A DNA stretch of 64,000 bases from contig NZ_PVNH01000008.1 in NCBI RefSeq assembly GCF_003001955.1, forward strand, positions 124,001 to 188,000, written 5' to 3'. Of this stretch, positions 4,060 through 49,822 are shown one piece after another. A model generated the notes under the pieces. That model did not search any database. It was not told the origin of the DNA and worked only from the letters and a program-made list of their open reading frames with translations. This DNA comes from Prauserella shujinwangii (GTDB lineage: Bacteria > Actinomycetota > Actinomycetes > Mycobacteriales > Pseudonocardiaceae). How positions within the stretch are numbered: the stretch's first letter is position 1; the number at the start of each line of letters is the position of its first letter. The translations under genes and the position numbers were made by a program.

Positions 4060-4112
4060 GCACCCGATGTGGCTTTCGGTGCGTCGGACGCACCGAAAGC
4101 CACATCGGGTGC
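4060..4112. repeat. Near-perfect 53-bp intergenic palindrome
   Basis: Two perfectly complementary 26-base arms (4060-4085 and 4087-4112) flank a single G. The arms contain GATGTGGCTTTCGGTGCGTC on one side. The centre GTGCGTCGGACGCAC recurs in altered form at 48944-49143 and 62851-62867. It lies between two divergent genes, so it is not an ordinary gene-end terminator. Confidence 0.9.
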
Positions 4113-46876: not shown

Positions 46877-47086
46877 GTCAATCCACCTTCCAAACCTTCC
46901 GCCCCGGTCGGGTAATTCGGGCCACATTCGACCCCTGCCTGCCGCAATGATCGAACAGACAGCCGCCGAATGCCAGACGGCGAGGCAAAAACCTCCGAAA
47001 ACCCGGCCATATTGGGCCGATTCAGTGCTTGCTCACCCGCAACTAACGAGATCGGCCGGAAGAACGTCTCAGCGCCCGGCCCGCCC
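46877..47086. other. Intergenic region upstream of the small HTH gene
   Basis: About 210 bases, less GC-rich than its surroundings. I see no gene. It contains a short hairpin (CGCCG...CGGCG, about 46972-46990), and GGCCGAT / ATCGGCC arms around 47015-47057. It must hold the promoter of the HTH gene, but no clear -10/-35 pair is visible. A tRNA or small RNA could not be supported. Confidence 0.3.
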
Positions 47087-47132
47087 CTCGTGCGTGTTTT
47101 CCGTGGTGCGGACCACGTTCCTCACTCACGAG
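47087..47132. terminator. Imperfect palindrome after the ABC-F gene
   Basis: Arms at 47087-47107 and 47112-47132 match over ten outer bases (one mismatch) and six inner bases. The reverse complement of the right arm, CTCGTGAGTGAGGAACGTGG, is almost the same as the arm at 12132, so both belong to one repeat family. It lies 15 bases after the ABC-F stop codon on the minus strand. Confidence 0.65.
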
Positions 47133-47147
47133 CGGTGACCAGGCGTT

Positions 47148-48776
<1,629 letters not shown>

Positions 48777-48845
48777 AGGAGACTCCGTGGTGAGGGGAAC
48801 GTCGGAAACCGGACAGCGCGAGACACCCGCGCGGGGCGGGGACAG

Positions 48846-48866
48846 CTATTCCAGCCGGACGACCAC
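48846..48866 (-). CDS. Putative six-codon leader peptide upstream of the ABC-F gene
   Basis: The mini-ORF GTG GTC GTC CGG CTG GAA TAG (MVVRLE) starts exactly 7 bases after a -10 TACACT (48874-48879), so it would be translated as a leaderless ORF at the very 5' end of the ABC-F mRNA. It ends 69 bases before the ABC-F start. Antibiotic-induced ABC-F genes are often controlled by ribosome stalling on such short leaders. Nothing in the sequence proves it is translated. Confidence 0.45.
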   Translation of the reverse strand: MVVRLE

Positions 48867-48943
48867 GACACCCAGTGTACGGACCGGGGTCCACCGGTTT
48901 TCGCCCCGGTGACCCGGCTCACCCATCCCCCGGCGCCACCTCC
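48867..48943 (-). promoter_or_regulatory. Promoter and 5' region of the ABC-F leader
   Basis: TACACT (48874-48879 on the minus strand) is the best -10 for the ABC-F transcription unit. AAAA lies about 18 bases upstream near the -35 position, reminiscent of the AT-rich element next to WhiB7-dependent -35 boxes, but the match is weak. Confidence 0.35.
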
Positions 48944-49143
48944 CCAATGTGGCATCGGTTGCGTTCGGCGCACCCAATGCGGCGTTCGGTGCGTTCGGCG
49001 CACCCAATGCGGCATCCGGTACGTCCAACGCACCCAATGCGGCATCCGGTACGTCCAACGCACCCAATGCGGCATCCGGTGCGTTCGGCGCACCCAATGC
49101 GGCATTCGGTGCGTCCAACGCACCCACTGTGGCATTGGGGAGC
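48944..49143. repeat. 30-bp tandem repeat array, about 6.6 units
   Basis: Six contiguous units of exactly 30 bases start at 48944, 48974, 49004, 49034, 49064 and 49094, with a partial seventh from 49124. Each unit begins CCAATGCGGCAT (or a close variant) and ends with GCGCAC or AACGCAC; units 3 and 4 are identical. The ends CCCCAATG and CATTGGGG are inverted relative to each other. It fills the gap between the acVLRF1 stop codon and the ABC-F leader. No spacers separate the units, so it is not CRISPR. Confidence 0.9.
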
Positions 49144-49144
49144 T

Positions 49145-49822
49145 TCAGGCGGGGTCGCGGACGACGATCTCCACGGAGCGGGCGCGGCCGGCCGCCTCGT
49201 CGAGCACCGTGCGGCGCGGTTCGCCGAGGTCGGGCAACGTGGTCACGGCCAGCGCGAACACCCGCTCCAGCCTCGGGTCGCGGCGCAGCTCGTCGAGCGC
49301 CTTCCGGTCCCCGCCGAGCACGACGCCGTCGAGCTCGCCCAGGTGCGGGCCGAGCACGTCGAGGGCGTCGTCCGCCGCCGCGCGCAGCGCCTGCCTCGCC
49401 TGCCCTTCCCTGCGGCGGGCGAACCGCTGTTGCGACCATCCGCCCGCCGCGCTGCGGCCGTGCACGAGGTGCCGGTCGGTGCGGGAGACGAGCACGCGGC
49501 CGCCCTCGGCGACGCCGACGCTGTGCCCGCCGAGCCGGACCAGCAGCAGCCCGAGCCGCCGCGGCACCCCGGCGTGCTCGACCAGCGGCGCCACCGCCAG
49601 CCCCGGCCGCACCTCCCCGGCCGCGCCCGGCAGCGGCGGGAACGGGACGCGCGCCGTGGCCGTGGTGCCGTCGCCCCCGGTCACCACCACCCGCTCGGGA
49701 CGGAGCACGGTCTCCCGCACCCCGTCGTTGCGCTCGGCGAACCGGGCGAACCAGCGATCCAGTCGCTCGGGTTCCACCTCGACGGCCCGGCCGCCACCAC
49801 TCACCGCACGCGTGCGCGCCAC
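49145..49822 (-). CDS. Actinobacterial VLRF1-type (acVLRF1) peptidyl-tRNA hydrolase
   Basis: A 225-residue protein with the release-factor-like VLRF1 fold. The catalytic loop GRSAAGGWSQQRFARRRE contains the Gln residue used to cleave peptidyl-tRNA on stalled 60S/50S ribosomes (Vms1-like). The N- and C-terminal parts, for example GVVLGGDRKALDELRRDP, belong to the same eRF1-like domain. GTG 49822 lies 10 bases after the dGTPase stop codon on the same strand, so the two genes are probably co-transcribed. It serves ribosome-associated quality control, in the cytoplasm. Confidence 0.88.
   Translation of the reverse strand: MARTRAVSGGGRAVEVEPERLDRWFARFAERNDGVRETVLRPERVVVTGGDGTTATARVPFPPLPGAAGEVRPGLAVAPLVEHAGVPRRLGLLLVRLGGHSVGVAEGGRVLVSRTDRHLVHGRSAAGGWSQQRFARRREGQARQALRAAADDALDVLGPHLGELDGVVLGGDRKALDELRRDPRLERVFALAVTTLPDLGEPRRTVLDEAAGRARSVEIVVRDPA

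Follow-up and report, generated by a model that had tools for sequence, protein, structure and literature searches.

An array of 30-bp repeats lies between the end of a ribosome-rescue gene (acVLRF1) and the putative promoter of an ABC-F family ATPase gene, within a stretch of 64,000 nucleotides, called here the window, that was analysed as a whole. The question raised by this locus is whether such an array serves one of its two neighbours or is a repeat that has settled between them. The second answer is favoured: judged from sequence comparison, the array is probably a tandemly expanded copy of a non-autonomous palindromic repeat, dispersed and apparently self-spreading, of the kind represented by MITE, REP or RPE sequences. 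Features of the locus are collected in Table 1.

Table 1. Positions, within the window, of the repeat array, of its neighbouring genes and signals, and of a second family copy.
Feature	Position	Strand	Remarks
acVLRF1 family peptidyl-tRNA hydrolase gene (ribosome rescue)	49145–49822	−	NCBIfam NF041024, E = 7.4e-81; stop codon at 49145–49147 (TCA on the + strand) flush with the right edge of the array
Whole array	48940–49144	.	A/B palindrome modules ABABABABABABA; outer ends CTCCCC / GGGGAGCT
Six contiguous 30-bp units	48943–49122	+	Units at 49003 and 49033 identical
Partial seventh unit	49123–49144	+	Closes the element (CCCACTGTGGCATTGGGGAGCT)
Probable relic of the ancestral stop codon of acVLRF1	48919–48921	−	GGGTGAGCC context, shared with Q. 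albus (L104) and outgroups; beyond the array
Putative −35, GAAAAC, of the ABC-F leader promoter	48897–48902	−	17 bp from the −10; by eye, five-genome alignment
Putative −10, TACACT	48874–48879	−	Identical in five aligned genomes; promoter function inferred
Short leader ORF MVVRLE*	48846–48866	−	Conserved upstream of the ABC-F gene
ABC-F family ATPase gene, TTG start	47148–48776	−	Best NCBIfam match ribo_prot_ABC_F (E = 1.3e-105; 354 bits, below the curated cut-off of 380)
Second family copy in the window, 45 bp, three-module form (ABA)	4064–4108	.	Between divergent genes

The array comprises 205 bases, with units starting at 48943, 48973, 49003, 49033, 49063 and 49093 and a partial one at 49123. 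Tandem Repeats Finder delimits it at 48943–49135 (period 30, 6.4 copies, no indels, score 253–302), which confirms the exact tandem array of six units plus a partial one, two of them identical, reported in the original prediction. It is the period that is exact and not the units, since internal 90-bp stretches are 78–88% identical to a reference copy. Each 30-bp unit consists of a palindrome A (CCAATGYGGCATTGG) and a palindrome B (GGTGCGTnnnACGCACC), whose centres alternate at 15 bp. The array opens and closes with an A module, and the extra C/G residues at its ends define the extent of the element as 48940–49144. An apparent ‘independent flipping’ of A modules was rejected, being no more than the polarity that a near-perfect palindrome has.

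Within the window, CCAATGYGGCATT is matched 12 times (at most two mismatches), versus 0.94 expected and 5 in the richest shuffle, and most of these matches are in the array. Searches of this genome returned 79 matches on both strands with the array as query and 115 with an 87-nt consensus, and the 12-mer CCAATGYGGCAT occurs 102 times, versus none for its reversed control. When ∼455 kb around the sites were scanned with a two-module weight matrix, 57 elements were called, versus none in shuffled sequence; these merge into ∼51 insertion sites among the loci fetched from this genome. Most commonly, a copy reads ABABA, which makes a near-perfect inverted repeat of 87 bp; other copies have from 3 to >20 modules, and length differences between copies are multiples of the 30-bp A+B unit. 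The view of the array as the expansion of a dispersed intergenic palindrome therefore holds. The companion claim that each unit is half of that palindrome is nearly right insofar as the unit is A+B, but the common dispersed copy is 2.5 units long. Beyond this genome, the exact 16-mer CCCCAATGTGGCATTS was found in 48 of 390 Pseudonocardiaceae genomes and in 6 of 46 genera, a patchy distribution (0–170 matches within one genus) that represents a minimum because an exact pattern misses diverged copies; its reversed control is absent among the matches listed. Named genomes with the family, again among the matches listed, are those of Amycolatopsis species and of Qaidamihabitans albus. The 87-nt consensus had no match among phage and plasmid sequences. 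Long homologous flanks of Amycolatopsis copies were considered as parts of a larger transposon and, by eye, were read instead as mosaics with other palindromes.

Other repeats accompany the family in this genome. Arrays at L045, L049, L051 and L075 include a further repeated module of ∼55 bp (CCAGCCGTCTC..GGTGGGCACTCC type) and are thus mosaics. A relative of a second palindrome family (CTCGTGAGTGAGAAACG..CGTTTCTCACTCACGAG) lies just 3′ of the ABC-F stop codon (47085–47131), and a third (GCAGTGAATGGCACATTCCCTGCACTCAACGCAGGGAATGTGCCATTCACTGC) is present at L046, L056, L043, L078 and L059, often in convergent gaps.

The history of the locus was approached by comparison with the congener Q. albus, with one genome per species. 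In Q. albus, the acVLRF1 stop codon leads directly into the conserved spacer, with no A module; likewise, no A module was found within 600 nt downstream of acVLRF1 in other-genus orthologues with a script-readable C-terminus, a check informative for about half of the orthologous loci, namely those whose reading frame was recognised. Here, acVLRF1 terminates at a new TGA on the array edge, and a TGA that looks ancestral is found past the array. Since the junction is empty in Q. albus and in the readable outgroups, the array is read as a lineage-specific gain; on this comparative evidence, insertion took place at the acVLRF1 stop codon and expansion followed. The same pattern extends to the family. 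Of 20 comparable sites, i.e. those whose two flanks are both represented in the available Q. albus sequence, most have no family copy in that species and three are shared. Among the latter, L077 is of equal length in both species, L079 has five modules here versus three in Q. albus, and L083 has ∼4 modules in Q. albus versus 11, with an additional short AB stretch, here. Copy number may vary between strains, as had been suggested; between species, length variation is seen at L079 and L083.

Some sites empty of the family hold something else. Different repeated palindromes occupy the Q. albus junction at 7 of the 16 sites that are not shared, as counted by reading, versus 21% of all its gaps (p = 0.04), and an ordinary hairpin at 2042–2112 of the window stands opposite a Q. 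albus copy. The Q. albus contigs C1, C12, C23 and C45 (L238–L337) carry a palindrome family of their own, CTCGTGAGTGCG-n-CGAGTTAGAACTCG-n-CACTCACGAG, present in 141 intergenic gaps in ∼2 Mb, including 72 among 150 convergent gaps of at least 40 nt. Its arm-to-arm length is the same in 167 of 171 cases, and its arm pairing is slightly above that of shuffles. In that form, it is absent from this genome, where the outer arms of the second family resemble it and the core is different. Another repeat (GTGTCCTGCGGG..CCGGGTGCGG), flanked by direct repeats of ∼30–45 bp, was observed at operon junctions in Q. albus C45 and C12, the orthologues of L046 and L062.

How such copies might be moved can be sketched from these observations. 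A trans-acting recombinase or transposase would recognise the phased palindromes and insert copies close to stop codons or at whatever sites suffer least harm, after which the 30-bp unit would expand via slippage or unequal crossing-over. The transcribed array would fold into a highly stable hairpin 3′ of acVLRF1, and a side effect may be stabilisation or partial termination of that message. At L066, a target-like duplication (CGCCTCGTGAGCG) is present on both sides of the copy and a single CGCCTCGTGAGCG is found in Q. albus, a pattern consistent with insertion accompanied by target duplication. One flank is common to L061 and L066 and may itself belong to the copied unit. Among codirectional flank pairs, 6 score high versus 1.7 expected (p = 0.005), a weak support for target duplication in general. 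A parent insertion sequence would have ends matching CTCCCCAATGTGGCAT, and no transposase with such ends was encountered. For the Y1_Tnp/RAYT domain (PF01797), matches were confined to two genomes of genus g51, with none in the present genome, that of Q. albus and 31 others; this absence excludes a RAYT system as the resident cause.

The location of the copies bears on function as well as on mobility. Of the 51 copies here, 36 have a stop codon no more than 40 nt away, as do 8 of 9 in Q. albus. With Q. albus gene pairs as the background for gap orientation, and with Amycolatopsis loci that are a non-random sample chosen by exact element match, divergent (promoter) gaps are avoided (p = 0.001 here, 8e-7 in Amycolatopsis). 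Against the same background, the excess of copies in convergent gaps is strong in Amycolatopsis (37/72) and Q. albus (7/9) and weak here (13/51). Between codirectional genes, the median distance is 21 nt to the upstream stop versus 73 nt to the next start, start distances being approximate as gene starts come from a simple purpose-written caller. At short-gap codirectional sites, 7 of 20 combine an [AG]TGA stop with an NTGA start, versus 8% in the background (p = 0.0025), and two overlap in Q. albus. One frame with the downstream gene is shared by 20 of 33 codirectional copies (p = 0.001), a bias not seen in Amycolatopsis. No translationally coupled start was identified at the genes downstream of copies. 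At L045, L049, L062, L064, L075, L046 and L084, exactly 29 nt separate the end of the array from the called start codon of the gene that follows. In these codirectional gaps, the 23 nt between array and gene are more alike than in random genes, which is not the case in Amycolatopsis.

The enrichment in convergent gaps, together with the presence of other palindromes at the same Q. albus junctions, also fits a functional 3′-end element. The family would then be a dedicated bidirectional terminator or mRNA 3′-stabiliser, homogenised and kept by selection, and the array a long one after acVLRF1. The hairpin opposite a Q. albus copy agrees with this proposal, as does the predicted fold of the array RNA, which is very stable (−140.7 kcal/mol, z = −9.3). 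However, the U-tract of a terminator is lacking, with no terminator-like site at 48700–49400, covariation of the pairing arms does not exceed that of shuffles within this genome or within Amycolatopsis, and copies are also found inside likely operons (L064, L066) and coding sequence. On balance, a selected 3′-end device is possible, if rather unlikely. Rfam returned nothing above the gathering score, with sub-threshold matches to microRNA hairpins only. Two candidate signals were discarded: an end pair covarying between lineages reflects the lineage consensus, and a complementarity of the flanks extending beyond the element, suspected by eye, is not real (p = 0.39).

What is conserved is spacing. 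Successive A modules are spaced by exactly 30 bp in all 207 intervals in Amycolatopsis and in 130 of 136 here, despite a mean identity to consensus of 81–88%. This fixed spacing, and a pairing that is not conserved, point to recognition of the dyads as double-stranded DNA, the recognising factor being perhaps a host protein, perhaps the mover itself. Along these lines, it may be conjectured, with the odds clearly against it, that phased palindromic repeats without RAYT spread in Pseudonocardiaceae through an undescribed mover, which would recognise them as double-stranded DNA at the fixed 15/30-bp dyad spacing, so that they colonise gene ends in species-specific, mutually replacing families and enter genes in frame. 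Alternatively, with dyads every 15 bp and repeats every 30 bp (∼1.5 and 3 helical turns), the array could be a set of phased binding sites for an architectural or recombination protein. This proposal accounts for the near-invariant spacing, but no known binding protein corresponds to it and the Q. albus family is also nearly fixed in length, so that a low frequency of indels may be a general trait of such repeats; it is considered unlikely.

Returning to the preferred reading of an expanded dispersed repeat, little is left for a role in the expression of the downstream gene. The original prediction had placed the array upstream of the ABC-F gene as a possible influence on its expression, and the two indeed share one intergenic region; by position, the array belongs to the 3′ end of acVLRF1, starting ∼40 bp upstream of the putative −35. 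An effect on ABC-F expression is unlikely because the putative promoter (GAAAAC-17-TACACT, by eye) and the leader MVVRLE* are conserved across genera and stand intact beyond the array, which is absent from Q. albus and the readable outgroups. As family copies elsewhere adjoin many other genes, a cis-regulator whose copy number tunes ABC-F expression is very improbable. The leader itself (48846–48902), with its TACACT −10 in several genera, is possibly a leaderless, antibiotic-responsive attenuator.

A protein-coding reading, as a decapeptide PN-x-x-x-G-x-x-x-A, is more improbable still. One frame is stop-free, and four Amycolatopsis copies (L141, L179, L200 and L233) lie in frame in genes as RPNVALGAS..NATLG or close variants: in a NuoG-like gene (two species, same place), between two ABC domains of an ABC transporter and within a WS/DGAT protein. 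In this genome, the L054 copy is at the N-terminus of an OpuAC-type gene, with which it is in frame from an ATG further upstream. Most copies, however, are intergenic, and acVLRF1 stops before the array, in another frame. The in-frame Amycolatopsis copies read as a decapeptide repeat linker. Finally, although tandem repeats are prone to misassembly, a collapsed or over-expanded assembly can practically be dismissed since the units differ among themselves, the array is only 205 bp long and the same design recurs in independent genomes.

These results add an actinobacterial palindromic repeat family that has no RAYT, the transposase linked to REPs elsewhere, and show a lineage-specific insertion at a stop codon, with sister species filling the same gene ends with different palindromes. 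How palindromes spread without RAYTs, and whether they have a role at 3′ ends, can be tested in culturable soil bacteria. For annotation, the family can yield decapeptide-repeat ORFs, spurious or real.

Several known systems offer points of comparison. Like intrinsic terminators, the family places a GC-rich hairpin just past stop codons, but it has no U-tract and no compensatory changes, and it also occurs in operons and genes. Like MITEs, it is a short, gene-less inverted-repeat element (87-bp terminal inverted repeats) whose sites are empty in a sister species, but target duplication is not consistent in the family, being clear at L066 only. MIRUs, which occur as tandem copies, are likewise short actinobacterial repeats, and the set of [AG]TGA/NTGA junctions recalls them; unlike them, the family is palindromic and also common at convergent gene ends. 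MIRUs insert at the stop/start junctions of neighbouring genes, with an ORF translationally coupled to the next gene (−4 overlap) (PMC12548453). Rickettsia palindromic elements occupy intergenic sites as well as in-frame positions within genes, where they encode a recurrent peptide (PMC10969869). Likened by description only, the family shares both locations and a common peptide, whereas it belongs to an unrelated phylum, sits mainly at gene ends with few intragenic copies, and undergoes tandem expansion. With REP/BIME sequences mobilised by RAYT (TnpA-REP), it has in common high-copy palindromes that are mostly extragenic, downstream of genes and assembled into composite arrays. REPs are defined by a GTAG or CGTC tetranucleotide at one end (PMC3733652), whereas the consensus of the family ends, by inspection, in AGCG/AGCT-CCCC and its mirror image; moreover, nearly all of its host genomes searched lack Y1_Tnp and its unit is longer and strictly 30-bp modular. 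As far as the open-access papers searched show, the family has not been described, and a lineage-specific insertion of a palindromic repeat such as this one is ordinary in kind and new as a family.
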